From positions 1-64,000 of the forward strand of contig JAIQCW010000105.1 of the NCBI GenBank assembly GCA_020283715.1: a stretch of 64,000 nucleotides of DNA, in the 5' to 3' direction. This DNA comes from Cytauxzoon felis. Its lineage: Eukaryota; Apicomplexa; Aconoidasida; Piroplasmida; Theileriidae. The notes below the pieces were generated by a model. It was not told the origin of the DNA. It did not search any database and saw only the letters and a program-made list of their open reading frames with translations. This document shows positions 1,392-54,934 of the stretch, piece by piece (positions within the stretch are counted from its first letter, which is position 1; every line of letters begins with the position of its first letter). Made by a program: the position numbers and the translations under genes.

Positions 1392-3255
1392 TAGTAATTG
1401 GATATCTTAATAATGCTACTATACCCATTAAATTCTTAATGTATTCAGTGGAGCAATGACCATCAGATAAAAAATATATATTACCACCATTATTTTTAAC
1501 ATCATCTAATAATTTTGTTATATCACGTCTCTCAATAGCAGATGCATTCCTTATTATGTAATCACTAATTAATAAACTATCTATTGCACCAAATTCTACA
1601 GCCTTAATCACATTACTTATACCCATACATATATTATCATCATTCAATTCTAAACGCCTCTTAACCTCTAATATCAATTTATCATGCTCTCTATATCGTA
1701 TACCATTTATCCTCTTTGATAATACTGGATCACTCAATATCTCAGATATCGCGTTTCTAGAAGTGATGTTATGAAAATTCAAGGAATATAGGGTAATATA
1801 GAAAAAAAATCGCTCAAGTCAATGGGGAGGAATCAAAATTCAACATACTTATCAGTAAAGTTAGAATAACATGTTATAAATTTATTTAAATTTTTATGCA
1901 AGTCAATATAGTTACTAAAGTAAAAGATTATTTAGAAAACAAAAGAAGAGTACTCTATAATAAAACATACAGTTTCAACGCGTTATCTTTAAGAAATTCA
2001 TAAAACGAATCCTAAATATAAATTTATATTATAAAACAACAACAACAACAACAAACTTTAATAATAGCTAAACCAGTAATAATAACAGTATTAACAATAG
2101 TAAAATCCAAATATTGAACAAGACGATCAAGTATTAATTTAAAGAATACCTCAAGTGACTAATTAATTTATTAATAAAATTTTACTTTTAAAAAAAAATA
2201 AACCTTTTTAGTATTACTTTGAGTAAATATAGTAGATTTTCTAGCAGGTATATTATGTACAATCTTAAATATTTGTTTAGTTATATACTGTGTCATTATA
2301 TATAATAAAGCGATACCATTATCAATAATCTATAAATTATATATAATAATATATAAATAAAATTACCAAAAAAGCCTGCCTAGCAGATTTACAAATATCA
2401 ATTGAATTCATTAACTTATCCTCACAATAACCATTCCATTCATCCTATAATAATAATACCATAAAAAATATATATAACCAACCTTATGTAAAGTTATAGT
2501 AGAATTAACATTTATATTCACAGTATGATACTGACCAATCTATACAAACAATTAATTAATAATTAAATCATATAATCTACTCCACCTGAGATTACCTCTA
2601 CCAACAGTCCAACCTCTCTTCGTCCTGCCGTCAGCTCTTCTATTTACTTCCCCTTCCAGCTCCCGTAGATCGCTTCCAGGTTCCACTCGAGGCCCAATAA
2701 CTACCTTCTTCATCGCCACGATCTCTGGGAGTGGCTTTACTCTTTAGAGATAGGTAATTAGAAGAGCTGACGGCAGGACCTCAGGTGGAACGCCTAGTGG
2801 CAAAGAGAGTTGGATTGGACATCAGGTGGAATGGTGAGTAGAAGATAAGGTTGTAACCTCAGGTAAAGTAGATTAGACCTTGAGATATGTACATACCTTG
2901 ATGTATGGATTTTCTGCGATATTTTTACCGGAGATGTTAAGGTCATCGTATGAGGAGATATATTCGATGTTCTATTGGAATATTATATTGAGATGAGTAT
3001 GCTTACAGTTACGAGTAATTTAATGTTGAATTTTTTAATCTCTTGTTTAACACATATAGAATTAGATCCTTCAGATTTGACTTTACTATTGACATTAATG
3101 AATGATTGATAATAAAATTACCGTGATGTAAAACATTCTATAATATCATTTTCGAATGTTATATTATATAGACACCAAATATCGTCTGGATTTTCTAATA
3201 ATAATCTAATTTGTATACCACCCGAATGTGTATTATTCCTCTTTAATATACGCAT
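1375..3255 (-). CDS. PELO: Pelota/DOM34 ribosome-rescue factor (multi-exon)
   Basis: Pelota works with HBS1 to split stalled ribosomes in no-go and non-stop decay. Exon 1 (3255-3122) reads MRILKRNNTHSGG..LLENPDDIWCLYNITF, the family N-terminus. Later exons give NIEYISSYDDLNISGKNIAENPYIK, then VGQYHT-like IGQYHTVNI, and DEWNGYCEDKL. The last exon carries the eRF1 domain-3-like C-terminus (AVEFGAIDSLLISDYIIRN, RRDITKLLDDVKNNGG, LLRYPI), ending in an acidic tail. I count about ten exons. Most introns are 35-50 nt, but intron 3 (2540-2896) is 357 nt and holds a GC-rich modular repeat. The start at 3255 is the only ATG matching the family N-terminus. Its stop overlaps the start of the downstream mTERF-like gene. 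Confidence 0.93.
2582..2880 (-). repeat. GC-rich modular repeat cluster 1, in a Pelota intron
   Basis: Begins and ends with inverted boundary motifs (ccacctgaga.. and ..tctcaggtgg type). The inner arms cctgccgtcagctcttct and agaagagctgacggcagg are inverted. Between them lie the B2 module (cttccagctcccgtagatcg) and the A module (gccacgatctctgggagtgg). On the minus strand, which is Pelota sense, the modules read in the usual A then B order. Confidence 0.9.
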
Positions 3256-3389
3256 AATAAAATTTTACATTCCCTTAAAAGGGCTACAACTTTATACACT
3301 ATGGATGAGCTATGGGTGTATAAGTGGTGGGTGACTGATGGTGTAATTTTATATTAAATGTATGGATTTTAACATTTCTTCATATAAAA

Positions 3390-4161
3390 ATGCCATGGCC
3401 TATTATAGCAATAGCAATTGGTGGTAGTTTACTAACAGCACGATATATCTACAAGAATTTACCAAGGCTTACGGGCGGTGTCGTCACCTCTAACATGGGA
3501 AGCAGAATCGGTAGAATGAATCTTCATGGATTTGAACCACAAATGACACTATCTGAAGCATGTAATATTCTTAATATCAGGTAAGGTTTATATTTCCATT
3601 AAAAAAATTCATTCATACAACTTCAGTATAACAGCACCAAAAGATAAAATCAGAGAAGCATATAAACAACTTATGATGAGAAATCATCCAGATAATGGAG
3701 GTATGTTCAATAAAAGAACTTTAAATAATAATAAATCTCCTCCACTCGAGGTCCAATCCAACTCTCTTTTCCAGTCAATCCTATCTTCCACTCGCCGTGG
3801 AGGCTCTTCTAATTACCTCCCCGTAACGGTATAGCCACTCCCAGAGATCGTGGCGATATCAACCCCTAAGAACAGGAATTCAACCCGGAAGAACGAAAAA
3901 GTTCAACCAGGAAGAACAGACCTCAACTATAGTATATGTAACCTCAAGTGGAACCCGCAGCTGATCTCAGGGAAGCGGAGGGACAACTAAATAGAAGAGC
4001 TGTCTGCAAGACGACCTCAGTTGGAACGCCTAGTGGAAGAAGAGTTGTACCTCAAGTGGAGCAGTAACAACTCAATTTATGCTTAAACTTCATATTCATT
4101 CCTAGGCTCTACATATTTGGCTTCGAAGGTGAATGAGGCTAAGGATTTTCTTATAAAATGA
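3390..4161 (+). CDS. PAM18: PAM18/TIM14 J-domain import-motor protein (3 exons)
   Basis: PAM18 stimulates mitochondrial Hsp70 at the TIM23 import channel in the inner membrane. Exon 1 (3390-3580) gives MPWPIIAIAIGGSLLTARYI, a single membrane segment, followed by the matrix region and MTLSEACNILNIR/S. Exon 2 (3627-3700) gives the J domain with APKDKIREAYKQLMMRNHPDNGG, including the essential HPD tripeptide. Exon 3 (4106-4161) gives STYLASKVNEAKDFLIK and the stop. Frames join exactly at both junctions, and the length of about 106 residues is normal for the family. Intron 2 (3701-4105) contains a GC-rich repeat cluster. RRP7 ends convergently 38 bases downstream. Confidence 0.93.
3738..4070 (+). 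repeat. GC-rich modular repeat cluster 2, in PAM18 intron 2
   Basis: Contains an A module (gccactcccagagatcgtgg) and a B1 module (gctgatctcagggaagcgg), both in plus orientation like the host gene, plus boundary motifs near acctcagttgga and ctccactcgagg. A variant inner arm, agagctgtctgcaagacg, replaces agagctgacggcagg. A short local duplication near 3870-3925 (cccctaagaacaggaattcaa / cccggaagaacg) is not seen in other clusters. Confidence 0.88.
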
Positions 4162-4198
4162 TTAATAATCGCAAATGTACGTGTAATTTTAGTGTAAA

Positions 4199-5020: not shown

Positions 5021-7334
5021 ATGTCCAGTAATAAAGTTGTTGAATGGTTACAGGCAATGTCTAATGCTATTGATACCGATAATGGTACTCAACTTGCCCT
5101 ATTATTAAGTTCTAAATGTAATAAATTACATGATCAGTTTCTACAAAACATCAATGAGGTTTGAGGAAATAATTAGAATTTTGATAATTCTATAGGCTCA
5201 AATTGATAATGCTTGTCAAATATACTTTGGAAAATACAATAGTAATCAATATGGTTCTAGTCTATATCACTTTTTATCAGAGTATCTAAAGCTACGTGTA
5301 ATTATCGCTAATAATCTATCAACATGGGATGATGTTGTAAAGAAATCATTTAAATTATTAGAGTATGTTGATTTCTATTGAATTATTTCAATAATTTTTA
5401 GTTTATGGTTGGATTTATATTTGAATATACCAGAGAATCATTATTGGCTAGTGCCTGGTTTATATTCATTATGTAATTTTGTAAGTAGACTTGGTACATT
5501 GGTATGTTATTATATTATAATGGATTATATTTAATTAAAGGCTGATAAATATCGTGATAAATCTGATAATATATCTGATATTGATAATGATGATGATAAA
5601 GATAAATATATGAAACAAGTTCTTAGTACAGTACGTAGTAAAATGGGTAGAGTACGTGGTGATGATACTAGGCATTCAGGTATATTAAAATATTATTAAA
5701 TATAAATAATACAATTAGCATATATTGTATTACTTGGTCAATCTATTAAAGGTTGTATGCAAGTATGTTTATTCAATATATTTTAATTTAAATAATTAAG
5801 CTTGGCAATATGCAAATGGCTGCTGGATTTCTAAAGGCTATAGAATCTACGTATGTTTATACTTGGAATTTTAAAATATATAATTTTCTAGCACTATAAA
5901 TTATTCAAGATCTTTAAGAGGTCCATTAATTAATTATCGCTATTATCTGGGGAAATTACATATGCAAAAAGAAGAATATTTTGAGGTTTATAATGAAATT
6001 ATTATAACCCATTATAATAATCTATAGGCTGAAGAACATTTATCATGGGCATTTTCAAATTCATTAAAAGAAAATACTAAAATGAGAAGGTAATTATCAT
6101 TATAATAATTTATTAATCATATAGACATATTTTGGAATGTTTAATTGTTGTTCGATTAGGTCTAGGAAAAATACCACCCTTAGATCTCTTAAATAAATAC
6201 AAGTATGACAATTATATTATATAAATTATATTCCATTCCAGCCTTGTACATTATATAGATATCGTTAAATCCATTAAACATGGAAATATATCAAAACTAA
6301 ATAATACTATTGTAAGTTTTATTAATATTAATCCATCCATATATACCACTCGAAGCCCAATCCAACTCTCTCTTCGTCCTGCCGTCAGCTCTCCACCTGA
6401 GGTCTATACAAGTGTTCCACTCGCCGTGGTGGCTTCTTCTAATTACCTCCCCTTCCAGCTCCCGTAGATCGCTTCCAGGTACCACCTGAGGTTATAAACC
6501 TTATTTCGAAGAGATACGTCTAAAGTGACGGAATTCATATTTGTCAGGATAACTCAATGAATATAACATGAAAAGGAATGACATCTCTTCATTCCGATAC
6601 AATCATCAAATTCCTGTTCAATGAGGTATTAACATGTATATTTCATCCATTATTCATTGCACAATCTTCATGAGTTTCCCCAGAAATTAAGATTTTCCTT
6701 CAAATTTTGGAGATAAAATGAAGTAGTGAAATTAGTAATATGACCTCAGGTGGAGACCTCAAGTGGAACCCGTAGCTGATCTCAGGGAAGCGAAGGGGGA
6801 AGTAAATAGAAGAGCTGTCTGCAAGAGGAACAGAGGTGGAGTGAACCTCAGTATAGTGGTTCATTAATAATGTTATTTAAATAATAACAGAGCATGGAAA
6901 ATGTTCTTTCTATAATTAATTGATTAATTTTCAGAACAAGTATATGAACGTTTTTATACGTGAGGGGACGATATTATGTGTTGAGAATTTGAAGTATATT
7001 TCATATAGATCATTGATACGTAATGTGTAAGTTGTATTGTTTATATATATGAACTTTATTCTAGTAAGAAATGGTGGGATATAAATGTACCTAGTGGTAA
7101 GAACAATATGTTACCATGCGGGGCATTGACATGTTCTATAAAATCGCAGGGTTTAGACACTTCAGATAATGAGGTTAGTCAATTTATATTGTAATCATTA
7201 TTACTTTAGATATTGTGTATATGTTCTAATTTGATTAAGAGAGGTTATATAAAGGGTTATATATCATGGGAAAGATACATGATTGTATTTAGTACTGTCA
7301 AACCATTTCCACAAATAAGTACTTGTATAATATG
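5021..7334 (+). CDS. PCID2: PCID2/THP1/CSN12 PCI-domain protein (about 10 exons)
   Basis: A PCI protein of the THP1/PCID2 group, a subunit of the TREX-2 complex that couples transcription to mRNA export. Exons joined by 35-45-nt introns read MSSNKVVEWLQAMSNAI, LYHFLSEYLKLRVIIANN, NMQMAAGFLKAIEST, GPLINYRYYLGKLHMQKEEYFEAEEHLSWAF and LECLIVVRLGLGKIPP, the family's TPR-like helices. The last exons give VFIREGTILCVENLKYISYRSLIRNV and the winged helix ending IKRGYIKGYISWERYMIVFS. One intron (6312-6934, 623 nt) holds a GC-rich repeat cluster including the 250-bp module. The stop at 7332-7334 lies 24 bases from the convergent RPB4 stop. CSN12 is the alternative name within the same family. Confidence 0.85.
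6345..6855. repeat. GC-rich modular repeat cluster 3 with 250-bp module, in a PCID2 intron
   Basis: A left B2 arm in minus orientation (ccttccagctcccgtagatc, near 6455), then a copy of the 250-bp module E at about 6490-6735 (starts near cgaagagatacg, contains aaagtgacggaattcat and gagtttccccagaaatt), then a right B1 arm in plus orientation (gctgatctcagggaagcgaa, near 6775). The inverted arms around E give a MITE-like layout that recurs in four other introns. Confidence 0.9.
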
Positions 7335-7358
7335 AAATAATTTATTATATTAAACACT

Positions 7359-10403: not shown

Positions 10404-11047
10404 ACCTCAAAGGTCCTGAAATCTCTCGTTACAATCAACATACCAAAGTCTACAATATCTGTTTAACTCGCCTCCACTTGAGGTTACAACCTTGTCTTCC
10501 ACTAGGCGTGGATCCCTCTCCTAATTACCTATCTCTAAAGAGTAGAGCCACTCCCAGAGATCGTGGCGGAAGAGGAGGTAGTGATGTAACCTCAGGTGGA
10601 AGTGGAATACCTGGAAGCGATCCACGGGAGCTGGAAGGGGAAGTAAATAGAGGAGCCTCCACGGCGAGTGGAAAGAAAGGTGGAGTATTGGACCTCAGGT
10701 AGAAAGGGAAGGTAGAGTATAATGGAAGATGAGGATGATGGTGTTGCAGATTAGACTTCGATTTGGTGTAATGGAATGAATGGTGACTTGGATCTATGTT
10801 TGTTGGTATAGGTATTGGTGGAAATGTTTGATTGTGTAGTTATGCACATTTAACTGTGGAAATATTTTAATGTTCAGAATTTTAATAATTATATCATGTA
10901 TATTTATTTATTACATCTGTATAAGTTTGATTTTTTGATATGTGTTGTAAGTTAGCTATTATTTTGTTGAGATTTATATCGATGGGGTATGGATGATAGA
11001 CGTGATTGATGAGATAATACATAATTGCATGGTATAATATTTATTGA
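10404..11047. other. Gene flank NSP1 to LON, with repeat
   Basis: 644 bases between two same-strand genes. The first half holds GC-rich repeat cluster 4 (separate entry). From about 10715 to 11047 the sequence becomes AT-rich again and should contain the LON promoter; nothing else is recognised. Confidence 0.5.
10452..10712 (+). repeat. GC-rich modular repeat cluster 4, intergenic
   Basis: A (near 10520-10570) then B2 (ggaagcgatccacgggagct, near 10613) in plus orientation, enclosed by inverted arms of the tccactaggcgtgg / ccacggcgagtgg type and boundary motifs ccacttgaggt and acctcaggtagaa. It lies 50 bases past the NSP1 stop. Confidence 0.88.
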
Positions 11048-14000
11048 ATGATTGTGGTAGAAATGAATAGATCCTATAGGTATACATTTGATCATTGTAT
11101 AGGTTTTTCTAGATATTTATTATCTAATAGGTCTATTTCATCTCCATTTATATATGGAAATTCTGGTATAGATGTGAATTTTAAACGTAGTTTTGTTATT
11201 GTGAGTGATTTTAATAGGAAATCTTATAATAATTTATATATATATGATTCATGTGGTAATTGTAGTTTTTCATCATCAAAAAAGAAGAAGAAAGAGAAGG
11301 ATGATGTTGATGTTAAAGATGAGGATGATATGAAGAGTATAATAGATTCTACTGCGAAGGTGATTTATGATTTTATGAATAGCGGTAAATCTGATAAGCA
11401 GAAATTAGGTAGGCAGGCTACTAATGGTAAGATTAGAAAGAAACCTATTCCTGTAAAGACTGAGGTAAAGGAGGAAGTGAAGAAGAAGGATGATGATGAT
11501 GAATTGGTATTACCTACAAAGTTTACATTACCTATATTAAATTTTTCACCTTCTAAACGTGTTAATGCATTAACTGCCTTAGGTTTATATAGGAAGCCTG
11601 CATTTCCTGGTTTTTATCAAGTATTACAAATACAAGATCAATCAGTATTACAATGTTTATCTAATGTGAAGCAGAATTCTGGTCATGATTATATTGGTGG
11701 TTTTTTGACTAGAGATGATAAGAGTTTAAATAATAATTCATTACCTGTATTAAGAGATGATGCTGGATCAGTATCATCATATAATGAATTACATATGGTA
11801 GGTACATTATTACAGATTATAACAATAACACCAAATTTAAGTTTTCAAGGTGGACAAGTAATATTAATGCCACATAAAAGGATAAGAATGACTGGTATAC
11901 ATGCAGAACCAAATGAGAATTATCCATTATATAGAGTATCAGTAGAATATGTAGAAGATAATAAAGAATTTGAAGATTCAAATATAACAAAAGCATTACA
12001 TTTAGAGATAATAACAACAGTTAAAGAATTAATAAAGACATCAAATTTTTATAAAGAGCATTTTGATCAGATAATAAGATTTTATAATTTAGATTATCCA
12101 ACAAGATTAGCAGATTTAATAGCTGGTATATCATTAGCTAAACGTGATCAATTACAAAATATATTATCAGAGATGAATATAGATAAGAGATTAACAATGG
12201 TATTAGAGATTGCAAAGAATGATTTAGAATTTGCTAGAGTACAATCTGAAGTAAATAATCAATTAGAAGAAAAATTATCTAAAGATCAAAGAAAATATAT
12301 ATTAAATGAACAAATGAAGATGATAAAAAAAGAATTAGGTATTGATAATGATGATAAGATGAATATAATAGAATCATTTGATAATGAATATAATAAATAT
12401 AATAAATATATGACAGATGAGGTAAAAAATTCATATATAAATAATATAAATCGTTTAAAACAATTAGAATTATCTAGTGCAGAATTTAGTGTATGTAGAT
12501 CATATATAGAATGGTTAATAGGTTTACCATGGGGTAAATATGATATAGATAATATAGATATATATAATGCAAAAAAAATATTAGATTCAAATCATTATGG
12601 TTTAAATGATATAAAATTACGTTTATTAGAATATATAGCTACTAATATATTAAATGGTAATAATAATAATAAAATTATATGTCTTGTTGGTCCACCTGGT
12701 GTAGGTAAAACATCTATAGCTATTATAATAGCTAAATCATTAAATAGAAAATTATATAAATTTTCATTAGGTGGTTTATTTGATGTAGCTGAAATTAAAG
12801 GACATCGTAGAACATATGTTGGTGCATTACCTGGTAAATTTATACAAGCATTAAAATATACTAATACTATGAATCCATTAATTATATTAGATGAAATAGA
12901 TAAATTAGGTAAAGATTCACGTGGTGATCCATCATCTGCATTATTAGAAGTATTAGATCCATCACAAAATTATAATTTCCGTGATTATTATCTAGATGTA
13001 CCTATAGATCTATCCAATATCTTATTTATATGTACTGCTAATACTATCGATACTATACCTATACCTTTATTAGATCGTATGGAAATTATTAATATACCTG
13101 GATATCTACCCGAAGAAAAATTATCAATCACTAAACATTTCCTTATACCACAAACAGAAAAAAATACTGGATTAAACTCTAATATAGTGAAAATTAATGA
13201 CTCTGCTATCAATACCATCATTAAACAATACTCTAGAGAAGCCGGTGTCAGAAACCTACTCAAATGTATCGAAAAAATCTATCGAAAAATCGCACTCGAT
13301 ATCGTCATGAAATCTACAACTCCACCTGAAGTCCAATCCAACTCTCTTCATCCTGCCGTCAGCTCTCCTAATTACCTCCCCGTAAACGGTAATGCCACTC
13401 CCGGAGATCGTGGCGATAAGCCCGTAGCTGATCACAGGGAAGCGGAGGGGGAAGTAAATAAAGGAAGCCACCACGGCGAGTGGAAAGGTGGTGGAGAAGG
13501 TAGTGATGGATCATCCATCATGGGAATGATGGAAGATGGTTCTAAGGATATGTTGGATGTAACCTCAAGTGGAGAACCCATAGCTGATCTCAGGGAAGCG
13601 GAGGGGGATGTAAATAAAGGAAGCTGTCTGCAAGACGAAGATAAGGTTGTAGTAGGTGATGGTAGTGATGGAATGAAGAGTAGTACTGGACCTCAGGTGG
13701 AACCCGCAGCTGATCTCAGGGAAGCGAAGGGAGAACTAAATAGAGAGGCCACCACGGCGAGTGGAAAGGAGAGTAGTACTGGACCTCAGGTGGAGAGCCA
13801 TCTGCAAGACGAAAATACAGATAATGGAAGACTATCGAGTGGATTGAGTTTGGATAGATCGGCGATAGCATCGAGTATATTATCTGGTGTGAGTGAGTGT
13901 ATAATTGTAACGGATGAGAATGTGAAGGATTATTTGGGTGTACCTATATATAATAAGGAGACATTACATCCTTATCCATTACCTTATGGTGTTGTGATGG

Positions 14001-14612: not shown

Positions 14613-14999
14613 TGCACAATAATAATATTATCCTCACTTATACATTATCTATCATTTATCTCAGGAACTCAGTTCCCAAGTTAATCAGATGTAAACATAA
14701 GCCCTCTTCCTCCACCTGAGGTCCAATCCAACTCTTCTTCCACTAGGCGTGGTGGCCTCCTCTATTTACCTCCCCCTCCGCTTCCCTGAGATCAGCTGCG
14801 GGTTCCACTTGAGGTCCAGTACTGCTCTTCATTCCATCACTACCTTCGCCACGATCTCCGGGAGTGGCTTTACTCTTTAGAGATAGGTAATTGGAGGAGG
14901 CTCCACGCCTAGTGGAAGATAAGGTTGTAACCTCAGGTGGAACGGCGAGTGGAAGAAGGTTTATAGAGAGTCTAGAGGATAGGTTGATATGAAGATGAG
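14613..14999. other. Convergent 3' flank of LON and an unknown gene
   Basis: 387 bases between converging stop codons, mostly occupied by repeat cluster 6. No gene is seen outside the repeat, although the repeat itself keeps a long open minus-strand frame with the usual repeat peptides. Confidence 0.6.
14705..14960 (-). repeat. GC-rich modular repeat cluster 6, intergenic
   Basis: In minus orientation, A (gccacgatctccgggagtgg near 14851) and B1 (ctccgcttccctgagatcag near 14775), with arms tccactaggcgtgg and ccacgcctagtgga. The minus strand reads SSNYLSLKSKATPGDRG ... [13 protein letters not shown] without a stop, although this is not part of a gene I can support. Confidence 0.88.
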
Positions 15000-15811: not shown

Positions 15812-16398
15812 TTCTATTTTTTTGGTTGTATTCCATTTTTATTCCGAATTATCACCCTTTAATCACTTACAATCTTATTATAATATTTTAATAATTTTAT
15901 AGAAGTATATATAGTAAGTATTATTATAAGTATTATATAGTTATTAGAATAGTATCAGTTCATGTTAGTAGTTATATAGTATATATATTATTATAATTAT
16001 TTATATGAATACTTGTATACCTTCCTATAACCATATATCATCCTTCAATTATATTAATATATAAATATATGTTGTATATATGTTACAATCTTCAATAGAC
16101 ATTGGAAATGTACTGTAAATGGTGTTTATTATCCCGACATTTCTGGGGTAAATATGAAGATATTGAATGGACCTCAAGTGGACTACCCGTAGCTGATCTC
16201 AGGGAAGCGAAGGGGGAAGTAAATAGAGGAGCTGTCTGCAAGACGAAGATAAGGTTGGAGAAGGTGGAGATAGTGACGGAAGTAGAGTTGAGGATGTAAC
16301 CTCAAGTGGACCGTATCTAATGTGAAATAGTAAATAAATGTAATGTAGATATCAACATTCAATATAGTTTATTTAGTTGATAATGTTATTATAGTTTA
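15812..16398. other. Intergenic region upstream of unknown gene
   Basis: 587 bases between the start of the unknown minus-strand gene and the 3' end of SmB. Mostly AT-rich, with one short GC-rich repeat copy at 16165-16315. Open frames here consist of repeat-derived peptide and are not supported as genes. Confidence 0.5.
16165..16315 (+). repeat. GC-rich modular repeat cluster 7 (short), intergenic
   Basis: A single B1 module in plus orientation (gctgatctcagggaagcgaa) with arm agctgtctgcaagacg, enclosed by acctcaagtgga at both ends in direct rather than inverted orientation. This is the shortest copy in the window and may approach a minimal unit. Confidence 0.85.
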
Positions 16399-17214
16399 TT
16401 ATGTTGGCCTTGGTGGCATTGTTGCATTAGTTTGTTGTGGTGCTAATTGTACGGGTGCAGCTCCTACGAGACCTCTCATAGGTGCTTGTAAGGCGATATT
16501 AGTTGTACCAATTGGTGGCATGCCAGGTTGTCCCATTCTAGGCATACCTAATGGTACACCCCTAGCTGCTGGTACAGCTTTACCTGGACCTGCACCAAAT
16601 GGCATTGGAGGTGCCGACGGTGGAGATCTTGCCGCAAACGATACTATATTCTCACCCCTCAATAATACAAAACCCAATGTACGCTTAACCTCCTGAATAA
16701 TAAATGTATACAGTATAGAAATTGCAATCACTCATTTCACTCGTGCCCAACCGTCAGCTCTCCACCCAAGTACAATCCAACTCACTTCATCCTGCCGTCA
16801 GCTCTTTTATTTACCTATCTCTAAAGAGTATAGCCACTCCCAGAGATCGTGGCCGAAGTATAGTCATTGGACCCCGAGTGGACTACCCGTAGCTAATCTC
16901 AGGGAAGCGGAGGGGGAAGTAAATAAAGGAGCTGACGGCAGGACCTCGAGTGGATGAAAGTGGAGAGGAAAGTAGTATTTGACCCAGGGTGGAAGGTTGA
17001 TGCATGAGTGAATACGGACGGTGTTGTATGGACTTACGACTTTTTGTTTATCTCCTTTGCCTTGAGTCATTCTAAATTCTTCACAATCAGCTAGTACGAG
17101 ATTCATATGTTTATCAAATGCAATGAGTACTCCTACGAATTTCCTGCCATCTTTGATGGTTACTCTGATGGTATACTGCAGCCATTGCTGCATACGCGTA
17201 TTCTTGCCTGCCAT
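16399..17214 (-). CDS. SNRPB: Spliceosomal Sm protein B (2 exons)
   Basis: SmB is a core component of the heptameric Sm ring on U1, U2, U4 and U5 snRNAs. Exon 1 (17214-17038) gives MAGKNTRMQQWLQYTIRVTIKDGRKFVGVLIAFDKHMNLVLADCEEFR, the Sm1 motif. Exon 2 (16692-16399) gives EVKRTLGFVLLRGENIVSFAARSPPSAPP, the Sm2 motif with the LRGENIVS sequence typical of SmB. A Gly/Pro/Met-rich tail (MPRMGQPGMPPIG, ending MPPRPT) matches the SmB C-terminus. The 345-nt intron (16693-17037) contains a GC-rich repeat cluster. I chose the ATG at 17214 because upstream in-frame codons lack an ATG and the family begins here. Confidence 0.95.
16740..16985 (+). repeat. GC-rich modular repeat cluster 8, in the SmB intron
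   Basis: A then B1 in plus orientation, antisense to SmB, with arms cctgccgtcagctc and gagctgacggcagg inverted around them. The boundary motifs are more decayed than elsewhere (ctccacccaagt, acctcgagtgga). Confidence 0.88.
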
Positions 17215-34759: not shown

Positions 34760-36310
34760 ATGTCTAGAGTGATTAAAGGATTATATGTAGGTGGCGTATA
34801 TCAAGCTGATGAATTATTTACTACACAATGTAATGAATCTGAGATCGCATTAACAGATGGAACAGATAAACCAAAATTTGGAGGTGTAATTACAGTATGC
34901 TATGATATTCCATGCTGGTGTAGATTTAAAGATGGAGAGGGATCTACGGGGGTGGACGATGAAGAAGAGGTCGAGATGGAGTCGGATGCATTTATAGCTT
35001 CATTGAATAAGAAATATGAAGATTTATCATACTTTAATTTACATTTGGATCATATAATTATAAATATAGATGGTAGATTTGAAAAGATTAAAATTTATCA
35101 TTCGATAATTTATACAAATGACTCTGTCTATGAGCCGTTGTTCAAGGCGTTCCAATTTACATACGAGTATGTATACGCATAAATAATAAGAATATGCATC
35201 TTTAGATTTATAGAAGGATTATTATCACAAGAAAAATCGGTGTTTGTCCATTGGTATGTATTGCATAGTATACTTTTTTTTCATATTACAACATCATATT
35301 TACAGTATGTATGGTATGTCAAGGAGTACAACTATAGTATCATCCTATCTAATGAAGAAGTGGAATAAGAGATTCAAACACGTATTGAAATATCTCCGCA
35401 CTATTCATCCATCCGCTGATCCAAGTTTTGGCTTTACTAAACAGCTCTACCTCTACTACAAATTCAAATTCAACATCAATAACCACGAACTCTTCTGGAA
35501 CTACTACAAAAGCTGCTGTAGAAATCATGACACATCAAGTGATGAATCTGATATAAATAGCCACTCTAGAAAGAGTATAGATACTGAAGGTCCTCTACCT
35601 GAGGTCAGTCCTGCCGTCAGCTCTTCCAATTATCTATCTCTAAAGAGTAGAGCCACTCCCAGAGATCGTGGCAATGGAGAGGATAGTGATGATGTAACCT
35701 CGGGTGGAATAGCCGCAGCTGATCTCAGGGAAGCGGAGGGGGAAGTAAATAGAGAAGGCACCACGCCTAGTGGGAAGACCTCAGATGGGGAAACTCTATC
35801 CAATGGAGAAGATGAACCTCAGGTGGAATCTGATGGCAGGACTTCAGGCGGAACAACAATTGATATGGAATGTATAGAAGTACCTTCTTCTACTAAATAC
35901 CCAAGATATACAGCTCCTTCTATGGATTATGATGATGAGTTGTTATTGGAATGGGTTTATAGATGTAAAACATGTTGCCGTGTCTTATTTTGTAATTTGG
36001 ATATAATTTATCATAAGCCCAAAGGTAAAATTGAATGTAGTAGTTATTTTATTGAACCTATGGATTGGATGTCGGGCTTAGAGGAACAAATGGGGCGCTT
36101 GGATTGTATGGGGTGTTCTAGTAAATTGGGTTCATTTTCATGGCATGGTAGGAACTGTTCATGTGGTTATATACAGGTACCTGGTATACAGGTATGTTTT
36201 ATTTGATACTTTTGTTAATTTTATAGGTACAAGCTTCTAAAGTTGATAAAATACCATATGACCCAGATATATATAGTAATATACCCAATAGACATCGTAA
36301 TTACACTTGA
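34760..36310 (+). CDS. YVH1: YVH1/DUSP12 dual-specificity phosphatase with zinc domain and repeat insertion (4 exons)
   Basis: YVH1 releases MRT4 from pre-60S ribosomes through its zinc domain. The N-terminal phosphatase part reads MSRVIKGLYVGGVYQADEL; exon 2 gives FIEGLLSQEKSVFVHC and exon 3 MYGMSRSTTIVSSYLMKKW, so an intron splits the HCxxGxSRS catalytic motif after its Cys. It continues VLKYLRTIHPSADPSFGFTKQLYLY. GC-rich repeat sequence encodes the next segment (35588-35865). The C-terminal zinc domain has YRCKTCCRVLFC, H, CSSYFIEPMDWM, LDCMGCSSKLGSFSW and CSCGYIQVPGIQ/VQASKVD, matching DUSP12. The start at 34760 is the first ATG; no ATG lies upstream in frame. Confidence 0.93.
35585..35865 (+). 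repeat. GC-rich modular repeat cluster 17, coding, inside YVH1
   Basis: Host-sense and in frame: LPEVSPAVSSSNYLSLKS, RATPRDRG, DDVTSGG and [20 protein letters not shown], followed by a decayed tail ending DEPQVESDGRTSGG. It joins the phosphatase and zinc domains. Confidence 0.93.
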
Positions 36311-38312: not shown

Positions 38313-39959
38313 TTAAGTTAGAGGTGTATAATCGTATCCATATGTGGTATTTAGTAAATTTCTCTTTATTAAATCATCGAAATAACGACTATGATCTACC
38401 TTTTCCCAGTCATTTAATATAGTACCTATTTATATTATATAATAATGGGGTAAATTATGCAAGAAAATTCTCATGTCCCCACATAAAAAACACTATAAAA
38501 TTTCCAACATACCTTTTAATAGATCATCAGATGGTGAATTATACAACGTATTACAGATATTATATGCGATGTTTATAGGAATTTCGGTACAATCCCTAGA
38601 TTTCTTCAATGGTAAATTATTATTCAATGGATTAGTAACATGTTTCAATTTATCAAAATCCACAGTACACTGCTTTATCCACTTCACTCTAAAATTATCA
38701 CCCACTTTTTGTGAGGTTTTATTCCCCCATATACCATTATATAATCCTGGTATAGGTAAAGTCATCATCTTAGCATAGCCTTGGAATCCACCCGTTTCAT
38801 TACCAGAGAAAATTAAGATGACATTATCATACTCATTAAAAGCAGATGATAATTTATTAGTATTTAATATACTAGTAGACCATATACCATAACAAATTGA
38901 ATAATAAATATTCATTATATTGTTACACTTAATCATAAATATCCTAGTACTCGATACATTACTATTCTCGTCATGTATACCAGGTATCATATAATCTAAA
39001 AGTAATAACATGAGATAAAGGGAGAAAACTGATTTAGACTACGTTTATTCTAAATGAAGTTACAATCTCTCCTCGTCTTGCAGACAGCTCTCCACTTGAG
39101 GTTACAACCTTGTCTTCCACTCGGCGTGGAGCCTCTTCCATTTACCTATCTCTAAAGAGTAATGCCACTCCCAGAGATCGTGGCGATTGTAGAAGTGATG
39201 AGGATGTAACCTCGAGTGGACTACCCGCAGCTGATCTCAGGGAAGCGGAGGGGGAGATAAATAGAAGAGCTGACGGCAGGACTGACCTCGAGTGGAGAGC
39301 TGTCTGCAGGACCAAGAGAGGTGGATTAGAGCTCAGGTGTAGTAGTAGAAGATTACTTCGGTATAACATACCGTTTATATCTTTTTTTTAACATCGATTA
39401 GATCTGAAAAGTTATTAATGTTTAAATTGTAAAACATACTTAATTTGATATCATTTGGATCTAACTTTGGTAATACGGAGCCTAATGCTACATCAAAGAC
39501 GGATGTAAATGTATTTGGATCTATGATGTATGACAATTCATTAAGATTAGTATTATCATTTGTATCATTTCCATCTGTCTGTTGTTGTTCTTCATGTTGA
39601 AATATACAACAACCTCGTAATTTATCTATACAAAATGTATTTTTTTCTATACTCCTACATGGTGGCATTCTTGAGTATACAAATTGATGTAGGAAATCAC
39701 AGAATTCCCCTTTCATACACATGCCTTTTAACCAATGACGGCATACTACAGAATGTTTACCACGAGTACGTTCTATATCTACACGTTCATATCCTTTTAA
39801 TTTTAATAAAGCAACCTTTTCACTGTCACGTTTTACTACATCTAATGCTAAATTTATTAGTGAATTACATTTATATTCTTCCACTCTTGATGATTGTTCG
39901 CCATCAAATGGCTGATTACATTTACCACCAGCCTCTAGAAATAATGTAGTGAATTCCAT
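38313..39959 (-). CDS. CPSF30: CPSF30 fused to a YTH domain (multi-exon)
   Basis: A polyadenylation factor with an m6A reader domain, the arrangement known from plants and apicomplexans. The first large exon (39959 to about 39373) has CCCH fingers: KHSVVCRHWLKGMCMKGEFC and DFLHQFVYSRMPPCRSIEKN, then CIDKLRGCCIFQHEE. A repeat-bearing intron follows. The YTH exon reads STRIFMIKCNNIMNIYYSICYGIWSTS, VILIFSGNETGGFQGYAKM, FRVKWIKQCTVDFDKLKHV and SRDCTEIPINIAYNICNTLY. A last exon, GTILNDWEKVDHSRYFDDLI...YGYDYTPLT, ends at 38313. The junction after DLIDVKKK is unclear: an A8 run is followed by an in-frame stop before the best donor (cg|gtatgtt). Confidence 0.85.
39060..39335 (+). repeat. GC-rich modular repeat cluster 18, in a CPSF30-YTH intron
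   Basis: A then B1 in plus orientation, antisense to the host. Arms are gtcttgcagacagctc and gagctgacggcagg / gagctgtctgcagg. The plus strand is open from SSTRRGASSIYLSLKSNATP through [18 protein letters not shown]. Confidence 0.9.
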
Positions 39960-41264: not shown

Positions 41265-41495
41265 ATGACAGCTCATCCACCTGAGGTCATTCCACTCGCC
41301 GTGGTGGCCTTCTCTATTTAGCTCCCCTTCCAGCTCCCGTAGATCGCTTCCAGGTTCCACTTCCACTCGAGGTCCAATCACTACACTTCTGCCACGATCT
41401 CCGGGAGTGGCTATACTCTTTAGAGATAGGTAATTGGAAGAAGCCTCCACGGCGAGTGGTAAAGAGAGTAGGATTGGACCTCAGGTGGAAGAGTA
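41265..41495 (-). repeat. GC-rich modular repeat cluster 19, between UNG and SF3B4 3' ends
   Basis: A and B2 in minus orientation with arms tccactcgccgtggtggcc and cctccacggcgagtgg inverted, and boundaries ccacctgaggt / acctcaggtgg inverted. The region of 312 bases between the convergent stops is nearly all repeat. Confidence 0.9.
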
Positions 41496-44223: not shown

Positions 44224-44867
44224 CATTTTTAAATCTGACATCTTTAACAATACAATCTACACTACAAAATGAAAAATAATATAATTAAATCAGTCTTTTA
44301 TATTATTCCATGTTGCCATGTATATTAATGTCAAGATTCCAAACATCCATATGACATAGACACCAACTTCAGTAAATAATATCTAATATATCTCTACATA
44401 TCATATAATGAATAATTAAAGCAATATTATCATCTAATTATATAGTTTCAAATATTACCGGAGAAGTACCCACACCGAGGTCACCCTCCCGTTGCCACTC
44501 CACCTGATATCGTCTTGCAGACAGCTATCCACCTGAAGTTACAATCCACCTCTTCTTCCACTCGCCGTGGTGGCCTTCTCTACTTACTTCCCCCTTCGCT
44601 TCCCTGAGATCAGCTGCGGGTTCTCCACTTGAGGTTACATCTACTACATCCTTAGCACCATCTTCCATCATTCCCATGATGGATGATCCATCACTACCCT
44701 CATCACTACCTTCTACCGCCACGATCTCAGGGAGTGGCTATACTCTTTAGAGATAGGTAATTAGAAGAGCTGACGGCAGGACTGACCTCAGGTGGAGTGT
44801 ATTGGACCTCGATGTATGATTTCTTGTTCGGTGTGTTTGTATATTGATAATGAATAGTATGGTGATA
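44224..44867. other. Intergenic region tRNA-Ala to eIF3e 3' end
   Basis: 644 bases. The first 230 are AT-rich without features; the rest is repeat cluster 20. Confidence 0.5.
44465..44830 (-). repeat. GC-rich modular repeat cluster 20, intergenic
   Basis: B1 and A in minus orientation with an insertion between them (ccatcttccatcattcccat) that also occurs, in the other orientation, inside the LON insertion (GSSIMGMMEDG). Arms are of the cttgcagacagc, tccactcgccgtggtggcc and ctgacggcagg types. The minus strand is open through the repeat. Confidence 0.88.
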
Positions 44868-47365
44868 TTACCATATAGATTCTTGATCGACACTTTTGAA
44901 TGGATCTTTATCTCTGGTTGTAAAGTTTGTGAATTTTTGTTGTTTTTTTTGATGTTGATTATTATATTGTTTTAATTGTTGTGTATTATATTGTCTTCTT
45001 TGTTGATTTGTATCTAATGTTCGTATTTGTGTTATATAATCAGCATTTTGATTATATTGTGATAGATTTTGTAAGATCATATTAGATCGTAATGTTAAAT
45101 TTTGTGTCTTTTCTATTACTTGTTGATAAATATTTGGTGGTGTTGTAGATATTTCTACAGAATTCTTTTCACTATCAATTTTAGCCTCTAATAATAATAT
45201 AAATAATAATATATAATAACAATTACCTAAATGTGAATGTCTTATTATATTAACAATCCATTTCTCAGCTTCAAATGTACTCATATTAACTTTTTGTGCT
45301 ATCAAACTAAAGATAATATTATCAAAATCTAATTTAAAAAAAAATTACTTTAAATTAATAGATTTATGAATTCTACAATATGTCTCAAATATTATATGCC
45401 TCGAACTCTCCTCTATAGCATCCTTCAAATGATTCAAAAATACATCAACATGACAAGCCTATAAATGTAAATGTTAATAATAAATAACATCAATTATTAA
45501 TTATTCAGTCATACTCTCCATTCCACTAGGCGTTCCACCTGAGGTCGTCCTGCCGTCAGCTCTTCCACTAGCCGTGGTGGCTCTTCTATTTACTTCTCCC
45601 TACGCTTCCCTGAGATCAGCTGCGGGTAGTCCACTTGAGGTTATAATTCTAATCTCAGCGAGATAAGGATAAAGTGACGAAATCCACATAAATGAGGATA
45701 TCTCAATGAATATAAATTGTAATGAAGTGATGTTTATGAAACTAAATACAATCATCAATGTCCTCTTCAATGAAGTATTAACCTCAGAAATTCATTTAAT
45801 AGTCACTCTACAATCTTCATGAGTTTCCCCAGAAATTAAGATTTTTCGTCAATTTTTGAAGGTAAAAATGAAGTTAGTGAAATTAGTGATTGGACCTCAA
45901 GTGGAATACCCGAAAACGATCTCTGGGAGTTTGAGGGGGAGATAAATAGAGAAGCTGACGGCAGGACTGACCTCAGGTGGAGACCTCAGGTGGAATACCT
46001 GGAAGCGATCTACGGGAGCTGGAAGGGGAAGTAAATAGAAGAGCTGTCTGCAAGACGACCTCAGGTGGAGAAGCTGACGGCAGGACGAAAATAAGGTGGA
46101 ACTGAAGGTAGTGGTGTAACCTCGGATGTAGAAGATAATGGGGATACATCAGGTATGATAAGAAGTTGTTATTTGTAATAAATAGTGTATAAACGTACAT
46201 CTTTTATTTCGGCGATATGTTTTTGTGCAGCTTCGAAATTGAAATCGACGAATAATGCTCCTAGTAATGATGTGAATGTATCACTATATTTTGATTTAGA
46301 ATTAGAAATAGCCTAATATATAATGGAATATATAAATTTATAGTGATATACAAACATTACTAATAATTCTAAAATGATCTTTACGACTTCTATTAAGAAT
46401 TGTATATACTGCATAATATCTTAATAAATGTGGTGCAATTAATTGTACTACAGCTACATTTCTTTCATCTAATAAATATTCTTGTAATTGTGGCCATTCA
46501 TATGATTTTATTCCTTTAGTATTTAATTGATTTAATAATAAATGATATTTAAATATATAAAATAATGACCAATGTAATAACCATACCCTTTTAAGTACTA
46601 AACTTTTTTTATCTTTATTAGATTCTTCTGTATTTAATAATTCAGCAAATTTTAATATACAAAATACACCAGAACGTGGTGTATTTTGTTCTATTATACA
46701 TGCTTCTTTATCATCTGTTTCTTGTGTATTGATTATAACTTTAGACATTTCTAATAATTCTTTATCATTTGATGGTAATAATATATTTATTATATTACAA
46801 CTTATTAAACCCCAATAACATAATACTCTATTCTTAGTAATATAACCTATAAATAATAATCTATTAATCATTTTAATATACCTTCTATAGTATATTTAGA
46901 TACTTTATTAATATAATATGATAACCATAATTTACAATTATTATAATCTTCTTGATCAAAATATAATTTTGCTAATTTCAATATCAAACAATCAACATCT
47001 ATAGGAAATTCATTCATATTCTCAATTGTCTTTGTTAATTTAAGTAATGATGAAATAGATATCCTTTCAGTAGTAGAACCAATCCTATTCAATTGATCTT
47101 TCTTATATAATGATAATACTTCTTGAAATGGTCTAATCTTATTCAATAAATCCGATTCATATTCTTTAAATTTCTCATCATCCAATTTATGAGATTCTAA
47201 ATTATTATATATACCTTCACGTATATTATTCAATTGATCTATAGGATAAATATTCTTAGAACTCAACCAATCAATTATATATAATAACATCCTAGGATCC
47301 AAATATGGAGATAACCTAGATGTAATATCATATTTACAACACTCATTAACATTAAATACTGCCAT
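44868..47365 (-). CDS. EIF3E: eIF3 subunit e (INT6) (multi-exon)
   Basis: eIF3e is a PCI subunit of initiation factor eIF3, part of the octameric core. Exon 1 (from the ATG at 47365) begins MAVFNVNECCKYDITSRLSPYLDPRMLLYIIDWL, then FQEVLSLYKKDQLNR. Later exons give SYEWPQLQEYLLDERNVAVVQLIAPHLLRYYAVYTILNR, then SDTFTSLLGALFVDFNFEAAQKHIAEI, and after a 740-nt repeat-bearing intron (45459-46198) ACHVDVFLNHLKDAIEESSRHIIFETYCRIHKSI. The PCI winged helix is SLIAQKVNMSTFEAEKWIVNIIRHSHL / EAKIDSEKNSVEI, ending YQQVIEKTQNLTLRSNMI and a Gln-rich tail. Several codons in the region read through short introns if not spliced. Confidence 0.93.
45515..46150. repeat. GC-rich modular repeat cluster 21 with 250-bp module, in an eIF3e intron
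   Basis: Left B1 arm in minus orientation, module E in plus orientation at about 45645-45895 (gagataaggataaagtgacg ... gagtttccccagaaattaag), a decayed B copy in plus orientation (cgaaaacgatctctgggagt), then a further intact B2 (ggaagcgatctacgggagct near 46003) in plus orientation. It is one of the two longest clusters. Confidence 0.9.
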
Positions 47366-53040: not shown

Positions 53041-53493
53041 TTAATCTCATATATACATAATGTAGAATATACTCTACCTGAAGTTACAATCCCTATCTTC
53101 TAGTACAACCTTGTCTCCGTCTTGCAGACAGCCTTCCTTATTTACCTCCCCCTCCGCTTCCCTGAGATCAGCTGCGGGTATTCCACTTGAGGTCCAGTAC
53201 TACTCTCCTTTCCACTCGCCGTGGTGCCTCTTCCTTTTATTTCCCCTTCCAGCTCCCGGAGATCGTGGCGAAGTATCCGAGACGATCCATGGGAGTTGAG
53301 GTGAGGTAAATAGAGAGGCCACCACGGCGAGTGGAAGAGACATTAGGATTGTAACCTCAAGTGGAGTACGATGAGAGATGTAGAAGATAAGAGTTGGATT
53401 GGACTTCAGGTGGAGTATATTCTACATTGGGTGTATGGAAATAATAGTTTTAAAATGGTTAATAATATTAAATGTTATTATTTTCTTCGTTCA
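53041..53493. other. Convergent 3' flank of EF-hand gene and TruB
   Basis: 453 bases between converging stops, mostly repeat cluster 22; the remaining part is AT-rich and featureless. Confidence 0.55.
53075..53415 (-). repeat. GC-rich modular repeat cluster 22, intergenic
   Basis: B1 in minus orientation, then a fused module at about 53240-53275 in which the B2 arm (ccttccagctcccg) runs directly into the A end (gagatcgtggcg), as if recombination had joined B2 and A at their shared gatc-containing core. Next comes agacgatccatgggagttga, a motif also seen in cluster 15. Boundaries are acctgaagt and acttcaggtgg, inverted. Confidence 0.85.
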
Positions 53494-54934
53494 TTATGTA
53501 TTCGATTGGTATTGTATCAAATTGTTAATGATTGATTCGTAGGTTAATTCGTTTAGATGTAGTGAGTTTTTGATGTTGAAATTACATTTTTGAGTACGAA
53601 TCTAATTAATAATTAATTTCTTTATATATAAATTTCAACATACAAGTGATGTAATTGTAGCTTTTGAATTTAATTTTGTACTTAAATCTTTAACTATACT
53701 TCTTATATAAGTGCCACTAGAGCTTTTAATATATATGGATAAATATGGTAACTATAGATATTAATTGAGAATATATTATATAACAACTAACATTATATCC
53801 ATTTTTAATACGATAAATATCATAAATTGTTATTCTACTAATCTTTATTGGTATATTATCCATCTTTTTCAAGACATATTTATATAATGGAATACCATTT
53901 GATTTCTTAGCTGAAATATTAATATTATATATATAGCTTATATATATTACCACAAAGACTAGGGGCTACTTGATCTTGTACACCCTTCATTGAATTTAAT
54001 ACATCATCTATCATATCATACGTTATATGTTCCCATGGCTCTTTATATATAACATTACCCTATATAATCTACTGTTAATATAAACATGTATCATACACTA
54101 TTATATATCGTGTCAGTCTCATAACCAAATACAATATCACACTGATACTCCTTGTCACCTATAGAATAATATATATATCAAGAGATAATCAATAATATTC
54201 TTAACATAATATCCATGCTCGTCAGCTACCCACCTGAGGTTACAACCACCGTTGGTCGTCTTGCAGACAGCTCTTCCAATTACCTATCTCTAAAGAGTAA
54301 AGCCACTCCCAGAGATCGTGGCGGTTAGAAGGTATGGATTGGACCTCAAGTGGAACACCCGCAGCTGATCTCAGGGAAGCGGAGGGGGAAGTAAATAGAA
54401 GAGCTGACGGCAGGATGAAAGGAAGTGGATTGGACCCTCAGGTGGAGGCGAGAAGAAGACAATGTTGTAACCTCAGGTGGAGTGTCGAGTGGAACAGTGT
54501 TTGTAAATAGGTTGTACTGGTGATATGAGTAGTATGTATGCATATATAATTATACCGGTTAGATAATATGAAAGACCTTTGGTAGCTTTACCGATTCCGA
54601 TTGCTAATACGCCTAATGGTTGAGATGAAAATGGTATAGTTACAAATCAACCTTGAGCATCTTTGTCTAGAGTTCCTCCATGACCAACTTTAGGAATAGT
54701 TGTACTAAATGTTAAATGTATGATATAAATATGAATATACATTAATTTATCCATTAGTCCTTTTGTTATAATCCTTTTTATTGTATTTGTAACGTCAGTA
54801 CATGTGCGATTGAATGGTTTGTATACGTTTAAGAACCCATTGACGGGACAGAAGTTAAATTTATATGAATTGGCACGGTAACATATTGAAAATAGTATTA
54901 ATATATAAATATATGTAAATGATATTAATTTCAT
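53494..54934 (-). CDS. TRUB: TruB tRNA pseudouridine-55 synthase, apicoplast-type leader (multi-exon)
   Basis: Modifies U55 of tRNA. The N-terminus MKLISFTYIYILILFSICYRANS is a signal peptide, followed by GFLNVYKPFNRTCTDVTNTIKRI, the family start; the two together suggest import into the apicoplast. Exon 2 gives [32 protein letters not shown] with the catalytic Asp in [9 protein letters not shown]. A 397-nt intron (54159-54555) holds a repeat. Later exons give DKEYQCDIVFGYETDT, MKGVQDQVAPSLCAKKSNGIPLYKYVL, RITIYDIYRI, SSGTYIRSIVKDLSTKLNSKATITSL and IRTQKCNFNI, ending at 53494. The start lies 8 bases after the PI31 stop. Confidence 0.92.
54225..54490 (+). repeat. GC-rich modular repeat cluster 23, in a TruB intron
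   Basis: A then B1 in plus orientation, antisense to the host, between arms gtcttgcagacagctc and gagctgacggcagg, with boundaries ccacctgaggt and acctcaggtgg inverted. Confidence 0.9.

Follow-up and report, generated by a model that had tools for sequence, protein, structure and literature searches.

Several described systems resemble, in part, the repeat reported here. Rickettsia palindromic elements (RPEs) are palindromes of ~150 bp that lie in frame in unrelated genes, contribute a recurring peptide and are also found extragenically, according to the account in PMC10969869. Yeast mitochondrial GC clusters are GC-rich palindromes in AT-rich DNA which occur in frame in var1, are polymorphic there between strains and are tied to gene conversion, and the byps of Magnusiomyces are GC-rich inserts in coding regions that are present in mRNA (both as outlined in the relevant sections of PMC8811140). 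Foldback transposons (FB, Galileo, Tetris) are non-autonomous and have inverted, modular arms of variable length, as characterized in the pertinent part of PMC4079207. In its passages on these points, a 2022 mobilome survey of 64 apicomplexan genomes reports that no transposable elements (TEs) were found in Cytauxzoon felis, states that class II elements seem absent from the phylum and discards MITE candidates as most likely false positives (PMC9141347).

Here we describe a palindromic repeat of C. felis that is apparently undescribed so far. We read it, with a probability of roughly 0.7, as a non-autonomous, GC-rich family of foldback type which expanded in the Cytauxzoon lineage once this had diverged from the Theileria and Babesia sampled and whose modules are exchanged by short-tract ectopic copying. 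The family inserts into introns, spacers and exons.

Abundance and architecture of the repeat family

The repeat makes up 15% of a 314-kb C. felis sample, with a GC content of 48% in the element versus 29% outside, and alters the TE-free picture of this species. A trained profile detects 331 half-units in 158 clusters in this sample and none in the reversed-sequence control; by extrapolation the genome holds about 4,300 clusters. Genome-wide, the exact 20-mer GATCTCAGGGAAGCGGAGGG occurs 705 and 669 times on the two strands and the core 21-mer GCCACTCCCRGAGATCGTGGC, with up to two mismatches, 1396 + 1429 = 2,825 times, while the reversed patterns yield 0 in both cases. An earlier note had counted 23 clusters in the window, i.e. 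the whole 64,000-nt stretch analysed here, and the trained profile gives the same number (Table 1). All modules it named are present (A1 6 plus/6 minus, A2 10/8, B1 10/8, B2 5/7), as are its arms, with ACCTCAGGTGG palindromes. The observation is thereby confirmed, and genome-wide.

Assembly artefact or contamination, which the same note had named as grounds for refutation, is a practically negligible source of the repeats. Homopolymer errors in the assembly are hinted at by a frameshift in a poly-A run of Lon, but numerous distinct genes have copies embedded in them, viral and prokaryote collections contain no exact match to the 20-mer, and the open reading frame (ORF) of the vaccine antigen cf76, published from cDNA, was amplified separately, including both of its copies, from cDNA and from eleven samples, though by the authors of the genome.

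In each unit, a pair of half-units in inverted orientation, with short arms added, forms a foldback. Its ~130-nt core (CTCTTC..GAAGAG) consists of paired, related half-units facing outward and is extended by arms and ACCTCAGGTGGA modules. Architecture variants comprise B<B> (16 clusters, eight of which span 368-388 nt and have a long AT-rich core, the other eight being shorter) and A<A>. Arm and outer modules recur outwards, giving the repeated, variable-length arms of foldback elements, and are almost absent at more than 200 nt from any core: the arms lie near a core in 96/96, 95/96, 89/90, 54/54 and 21/22 cases and the outer modules within 200 nt in 369/370 and 360/361. ACCTCRRGTGGA, proposed as outer boundary, is indeed found outside but occurs centrally too.

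Whole elements fold far better than controls (mean z ~ -5.1 for 60 elements versus -0.03 for 60 controls), and RNA folding of window positions 54230-54490 gives z -4.31. Compensatory changes affect 3 of 18 consensus pairs, and the events behind them may be few. A string of mini-hairpins was rejected as the main feature, as folding restricted to a span of 26 nt is weaker than in shuffled sequences (z +0.88; control +0.19); the frequency of perfect mini-hairpins is 1.18-fold that of shuffles, and 0.76-fold in control regions. The arms had been called inverted, which holds for their polarity but not for a match within one element: among 99 arm pairs (13 of 112 were dropped as unclassified), 23 are of the same class versus 21.2 expected (p=0.35). 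Matched terminal inverted repeats (TIRs) were thus not found among these pairs, and correction of matched arms by template copying was rejected on the same count. An older B<core>B and a younger A<B> wave were likewise discarded, the mean pairwise identities of 0.77 (8 copies) and 0.80 (66 copies) differing little.

Table 1. The 23 repeat clusters of the window
Position	Strand	Element and location	Remarks
2579..2864	-	A<B> (B2 half, A half)	
3740..4061	+	A<B>, AAGAACAG-type spacer	
6357..6830	.	B<core>B, core long and AT-rich	
10466..10700	+	A<B>, upstream of Lon ORF	
13319..13813	+	A<B>B>B>, in frame in Lon protease ORF (11048-14386)	495 nt
14709..14958	-	A<B>, 3' of Lon	
16167..16311	+	Single B half-unit and arm	
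16751..16955	+	A<B>	
17752..17998	+	A<B>	
18482..18892	.	B<core>B	
19439..19711	.	A<A>, AT-rich centre	
22389..22660	-	A<B>, in frame, ORF 21779-23977	
25936..26561	.	B<core>B>B>, intron of diphthamide synthase gene	Diphthamide_syn profile: 183-265 precedes and 265-301 follows the element
29395..29656	-	A<B>, intron of plus-strand PWI-domain gene	GT..AG outside element
30834..31231	-	A half and 2-3 B halves, in frame, ORF 30517-31752	DcpS_C below cut-off; B halves: two by refined profile, three by first profile
33615..34051	.	B<core>B	
35597..35829	+	A<B>, in frame, ORF 35256-36206	Dual-specificity phosphatase match
39073..39312	+	A<B>, between minus-strand CCCH zinc-finger and YTH ORFs, probably one gene	
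41275..41491	-	A<B>	
44496..44812	-	A<B>, SDGSSIMGMMEDG-type spacer	
45521..46113	.	B<core>B>B>, exons on either side probably of eIF3e	Weak eIF3_N upstream; PCI, EIF3E_C downstream
53076..53416	.	Composite; flanking AATGTAGAATAT inverted on opposite side	
54230..54499	+	A<B>	

Assortment of modules among the copies

Linkage was evaluated in 85 copies over a span of 130 nt with modules of ~10-25 nt. Inside blocks r2 reaches 0.63 (V1), 0.62 (V2) and 0.80 (V4), with V3 (0.12) and V5 (0.19) being weak, while between blocks it is 0.0134 (541 pairs) versus 0.0137 for the shuffled null. At a matched distance of 11-26 nt the values are 0.38 within and 0.026 between blocks; the neighbouring pairs V3-V4 (0.027) and V4-V5 (0.028) are at about twice the null. 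By mutual information (MI), only 1 of 21 module pairs falls at p<0.05. Linkage is gone within ~30 nt, the joints measure 12-26 nt, and the similarity of copies is unrelated to their genomic distance. On average the modules are therefore in linkage equilibrium, and evolution of the copies as intact lineages is thereby refuted. They recombine rather than form intact subfamilies, and such free, cassette-like assortment is not explained by simple descent.

We infer that resident copies swap modules at the conserved joints by short-tract ectopic copying, which may proceed via template switching or microhomology with the foldback structure assisting. Mixing by ordinary gene conversion fits less well, since its tracts are longer than the linkage and joints seen here and copy similarity does not depend on genomic distance. 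A broader proposal is that all ~4,300 palindromes might form one freely recombining pool in which 10-25-nt cassettes are swapped in place at the joints, by neither ordinary transposition nor long-tract conversion, continually re-assorting introns, spacers and protein linkers including those of a vaccine antigen. We regard it as tentative and on balance doubtful; if true, a shared cassette library would keep reshaping all of these sequences. With its modules in equilibrium, the family provides a natural system in which to study recombination over very short tracts in the nucleus of a eukaryote.

Insertion sites and copies in reading frames

The insertion in Lon is missing from the Lon orthologues of T. 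equi and T. annulata, and that in a CAF1/PARN-like gene is missing from the orthologues of relatives. At unlinked sites with unlike flanks the cores are still 93.7-96.2% alike (6 pairs). The earlier note's idea of a foldback or MITE-like non-autonomous family stands with respect to a dispersed, inserted foldback type but not for the MITE traits: besides the lack of matched TIRs, target-site duplications (TSDs) of 2-12 nt gave no signal in the 45 of 158 blocks having both outer palindromes, the true ends of which are uncertain. Paralogous empty sites were not found in the 314-kb sample, and an empty allele of the same locus was not seen inside C. felis, so that any recent mobility is putative. 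Inverted similarity of the flanks beyond the element shows a weak excess (score >=24 in 11 of 158 clusters versus 4.9 expected; score >=20 in 30 versus 18.9) and carries no positional signal.

As to introns, 13 had been proposed in the window. Two are shown by a Pfam domain split across the element (diphthamide synthase, PWI) and two are less firm, the remainder being putative. For eIF3e, the domains of the flanking exons lend support, with an N-terminal match below the cut-off; for 39073..39312, support comes from a CCCH/YTH pair in the neighbouring exons, two domains that occur fused in a single gene. Introners, i.e. elements that supply their own splice sites and thereby create introns, would agree with at least two intronic copies and with GTAAWT motifs inside the halves. 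This explanation is highly improbable and was rejected, as element ends do not coincide with splice sites: in two introns inspected visually (at 29395 in the window and at C9 69051) these lie outside the element, and in both, the former in the PWI gene, ~50-60 nt of ordinary intron sequence remains on each side. Moreover, clusters between same-strand ORFs are oriented 20:20, and the cDNA of cf76 retains both copies.

The four coding cases of the earlier note were matched in number by copies inside ORFs with >=200 codons outside the element. In the sample, 21 of 23 such ORFs carry copies that are all forward; B halves share one frame in 25/25 scored cases (5 unscored) and A halves in 16/19 (4 unscored). 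In-frame insertion on one strand and in one frame, as in RPEs, is thus found here but is partly implied by ORF finding: the single B frame arises largely because ORFs are found by openness and both alternative forward frames hit a stop in GTAAATAG. With all ORFs of >=100 codons counted, 24 clusters inside have the same and 6 the opposite orientation. Purifying selection on the peptide was rejected as inconsistent, N/S being 2.21 coding versus 4.44 noncoding for A halves and, oppositely, 3.11 versus 2.21 for B halves. The 23 A halves labelled 'coding' include 4 stops, hence the coding label is imperfect. Exon insertions may survive mainly where the commonly open frame (..EGEVNR..) fits the gene, and would then be translated.

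In the published C. felis assembly, to which the window belongs, cf76 is matched at 100% at its published coordinates, and the gene contains two element copies. Its published tandem repeat corresponds to one arm plus outer module, with a 33-nt module in tandem. The alleles have the insertion in common and differ in module content; two alleles of one gene are a thin basis for in-place exchange. The seroreactive, immunogenic C-terminal fragment includes one copy, and isolates differ by a module of that copy. Matches to cf76 number 95 across the genome, cf76 included. As element-like stretches recur elsewhere, antibodies against cf76 could bind other proteins, which is relevant to vaccine and serology design.

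A selected cassette system that diversifies parasite proteins including antigens would be in line with the free assortment of modules and with the two cf76 copies, including the one that varies within the immunogenic fragment. We consider it improbable, however: 133 of the 158 clusters lie outside long ORFs in either orientation, 27 of 60 copies there have no open frame, copies are also present in genes with housekeeping roles (Lon, diphthamide synthase), and the N/S constraint is inconsistent.

Origin and comparison with known systems

In agreement with the earlier note, which had seen no transposase, profile searches of the genome for rve (integrase), MULE, DDE_3 and DDE_Tnp_4 returned 0; the hAT and piggyBac searches, whose controls were silent too, do not demonstrate absence. 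A LINE or LTR retroelement was rejected, since the integrase count is 0 and the one reverse transcriptase ORF in the genome (RVT_1) is telomerase-like by eye. Rfam at gathering scores yields one tRNA only, within the window.

A DNA transposon of the conventional MITE or foldback kind with an undetected transposase, its modules mixed by ordinary gene conversion, would account for the foldback symmetry and the dispersed cores, and a 2.7-kb gene fragment between two A halves (C4 48.5-51.7 kb) resembles gene capture. It is nonetheless unlikely given the absence of matched TIRs (99 pairs), of a TSD signal (45/158 blocks) and of the transposases covered by the four DNA-transposon profiles, together with the rapid loss of linkage. 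The reading as a foldback-type family with short-tract module exchange is preferred.

Compared with the systems introduced above, the C. felis repeat differs from RPEs by residing in a eukaryotic nuclear genome, by thousands versus tens of copies, by its presence also in introns and by the equilibrium of its modules. The host is an apicomplexan, the prokaryote genome_contigs collection has no exact match to the 20-mer, and RPEs are set apart by description. Yeast GC clusters are several times shorter; here the copies are nuclear and number thousands, with no duplication seen. Contigs >100 kb and neighbouring genes of nuclear type, such as diphthamide synthase and Lon, place the elements in the nucleus, not in the mitochondrion. 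Foreign DNA in the centre is a trait common to foldback transposons and the present family, which differs from them in having a 130-nt core, arms drawn independently, no TSD found and no superfamily signature. Byps, finally, are bypassed in translation, whereas the exon copies of C. felis are in frames that stay open, a property not needed under bypass.

Abundance and architecture of the element

The repeat modules that the earlier note had named are real and present in the window sequence, and our profile search likewise gave the 23 clusters claimed for it. Profiles of the two related half-units A and B were trained on the window and a 314-kb sample (the window, C9:1-140000 and C4:1-110000; C4, C9 and C114 are contigs of the C. 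felis assembly). They resulted in 331 half-unit matches across the sample (140 A, 191 B) and none on the reversed sequence used as control. The matches form 158 clusters (92 in C9, 43 in C4, 23 in the window), most commonly with one A and one B pointing outward (A<B>, 95 clusters). Another 16 are B<B>, 12 consist of a lone A and 7 of a lone B, A<B>B> and B<B<B> account for 6 each, and the rest take rarer forms. Element blocks take up 47,194 bases or 15.0% of the sample, with a GC content of 48% vs 29% in the remainder. Extrapolation leads to ~4,300 clusters per assembly, and the whole genome holds 2,825 instances of a core 21-mer with at most two mismatches (none in the control). Genome-wide counts refer to an assembly of 8,623,106 bases in 181 contigs; the published one has 9.1 Mb in 361 contigs (PMC3748084), so ours is either identical to it or a part of it. 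Cytochrome b has no match anywhere in our assembly, which seems to lack mitochondrial contigs.

From the centre outward, both half-units consist of a GATCTC..GGGA segment, a linker, GTAAWTAG, AAGAG and an arm. The arms belong to the classes GCTGACGGCAGGA, CTGTCTGCAAGAC, CCACGGCGAGTGG, CCACGCCTAGTGG and CTCCATGCAATGG, left and right arm being drawn independently of each other within elements, and are followed by linkers and then ACCTCRRGTGGA. Arms and outer modules are almost never found away from the core, hence the composite is the unit. Whole elements fold far more strongly than their dinucleotide shuffles (mean z -5.1, 60 elements; control -0.03), and short-range folding is not stronger than in the shuffles. 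Weaker inverted flanks than those at the C9 element in the table were seen at several other elements.

Insertion into host genes and reading frame

Past insertion is shown by empty orthologues: the comparison of orthologous loci proposed in the earlier note revealed that the relatives lack the insertions in the protease gene Lon and in a CAF1/PARN-like gene. Target-site duplications, likewise suggested there, gave no signal for 2-12 nt in the 45 of 158 blocks that have both outer palindromes, the true ends being uncertain. Lon has its nearest counterparts in Theileria equi and T. annulata (80% identity, best local alignment covering 38% of the part searched). Its 495-nt block sits in a linker which is short in these two species and variable in T. 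orientalis. The CAF1/PARN-like gene has ~150 extra residues within the CAF1 domain, including a 283-nt element block, that are absent in T. equi, two T. orientalis, B. bovis, B. microti and B. ovata. Two intron elements of the window split a Pfam domain (diphthamide synthase and PWI genes), with the GT..AG splice sites of the PWI gene falling outside the element. Further window elements lie between CCCH and YTH ORFs and between eIF3e ORFs (eIF3_N match below cut-off); each of these ORF pairs is probably one gene.

Clusters with clear direction between same-strand ORFs show the same orientation in 20 cases and the opposite one in 20 (264-kb sample); within ORFs of 100 codons or more the numbers are 24 and 6. 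In the 314-kb sample, 23 ORFs have 200 or more codons besides those of the element; 21 of them contain forward halves only, and the two exceptions have one reverse half each. All 25 scored B halves (5 unscored) share a single reading frame; of the 19 scored A halves (4 unscored), 16 use one frame and 3 another. Because stop codons (TAA and TAG) interrupt GTAAATAG in both remaining frames, the restriction to ORFs largely dictates the B result; independent evidence comes from the homologues described above. Of the 68 A<B> copies examined, 8 lie in long ORFs, and 7 of these are open in that frame, as are 24 of the 60 located elsewhere; 27 of the 60 have no open frame at all. Where both anchors are present (9 of 15 coding, 58 of 80 other copies), 8 of 9 coding copies have A and B spaced by a multiple of three, vs 27 of 58 others. 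Cluster density amounts to 0.22 per kb in ORFs of 200 codons or more (25 clusters) vs 0.87 elsewhere. Survival of a single frame out of six would give a ratio of 1/6, the observed one being 0.25, but the comparison is rough because ORF detection favours open copies.

Coordinates of genes, elements and neighbouring features
Feature	Contig	Positions	Observation
Minisatellite	window	675-774	10/20-bp, GAAGTTGATG
Long ORF	window	8149-9735	FG-type repeats (SLFGSTT), nucleoporin-like by eye
Lon	window	11048-14386	protease ORF
Poly-A run in Lon	window	14358-14383	frame shifts one base; may be a homopolymer sequencing error
tRNA gene	window	44151-44223	near element cluster; Rfam RF00005, 49.1 bits
ORF	C9	108661-109554	one reverse half
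B<B> element	C9	112504-112797	exact 19-nt TAATTATTTGCATCCCACT on both sides, inverted orientation
CAF1/PARN-like gene	C9	118078-119565	
ORF	C4	48687-51533	one reverse half
A halves facing outward	C4	48500-51700	surround 2.7-kb stretch; inverted flanks outside
Match to the 2.7-kb stretch	C4	22099-22433	99.1% identical over 335 nt
cf76	C114	6540-8708	100% over 723 aa

The surface antigen cf76

The element-encoded part of Lon was searched against ~5.8 billion proteins (candidates of 0.55-1.75 times query length only), giving two matches, both the C. felis surface antigen cf76. In the literature it is placed at contig00195:6540-8711 (Table 1 of PMC6310948), and a 2172-bp ORF with fragments amplified from cDNA has been described (PMC3748084). 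The protein contains two complete in-frame A<B> copies (residues ~200-270 and ~583-657), and, counting its own locus, cf76 has at least 95 matches across the assembly (62 of 3,347 candidates scored).

Copy 1 contains two published fragment primers (Table 1 of PMC3748084); as this repeat is present thousands of times in the genome, PCR specificity may be affected. Copy 2 falls within the C-terminal fragment (from residue 499) reported as most reactive with pooled survivor sera (PMC3748084). The immunogenicity of cf76 below expectation in a later trial (PMC10058880) counts against a simple immunodominance story. The published 30-bp repeat, which is in tandem in ten samples out of eleven and single in the other (PMC3748084), corresponds by sequence to arm plus outer module (33 nt by our count); a term search of the PMC3748084 text gave no mention of transposon or palindrome. 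Two database alleles of cf76 have the insertion in common and differ in the module content of copy 1.

Proposed module exchange, origin and known systems

Linkage was evaluated in those 85 of the 95 A<B> copies that passed a length filter of 104-200 nt; their alignment has 45 columns with common two-state variants. Mean r2 falls with rising distance from 0.50 (1-3 nt) over 0.43, 0.23, 0.07 and 0.015 to 0.012 (>60 nt; 1/n = 0.012), and all four combinations are present in 935 of 990 column pairs. Within the variant blocks along the copies, r2 reaches 0.63 in V1 (left arm), 0.62 in V2 (inner hairpin) and 0.80 in V4 (B1/B2), being weak in V3 (0.12) and V5 (0.19). The mean between blocks (0.0134, 541 pairs) equals that of shuffled rows (0.0137), with the highest neighbouring-block means at V3-V4 (0.027) and V4-V5 (0.028). 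Since r2 at a matched distance of 11-26 nt is 0.38 within blocks vs 0.026 between them, the decay tracks modules and not distance alone. A module-class test that needs no alignment gave the same picture for 95 copies, with p<0.05 in 1 of 21 pairs. Copies are equally similar whether near or far apart in the genome (0.54-0.55 in each of four distance classes). Variants unlinked between modules are not as expected of copies descending intact.

Among copies at unlinked sites, six pairs show the highest similarity (at least 125 nt and 93.5%; boundaries judged by eye). The shared stretch starts at or near CTCTTC in five of them; two of the six are bounded by CTCTTC and GAAGAG on both sides with differing arms outside, and in the remaining pairs it extends into a common arm or stops within the element. 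The junction motif GCTCTTC at the core ends is identical to the site recognised by SapI, a type IIS enzyme, probably by coincidence. Joints between modules measure 12-26 nt, below the length usual homologous recombination needs. After insertion, copies mix modules across the sampled genome. We propose that this exchange may happen in place, as the cf76 alleles suggest, and that template switching promoted by the foldback or cruciform structure would be the likeliest driver.

Profile searches of the genome found no integrase, MULE, DDE_3 or DDE_Tnp_4 domains, and the single RT ORF is telomerase-like in appearance. The 2.7-kb stretch in C4 resembles FAINT-type and membrane gene-family sequence by eye. 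Judged from sequence, this locus looks like a gene-fragment capture, by which foreign DNA can end up in the element centre.

A mobilome survey reports that it found no TEs in C. felis (PMC9141347), and among the open-access literature matches listed, no title or abstract describes the repeat. Foldback transposons are nearest to the C. felis element in architecture, and RPEs together with mitochondrial GC clusters are nearest in behaviour.
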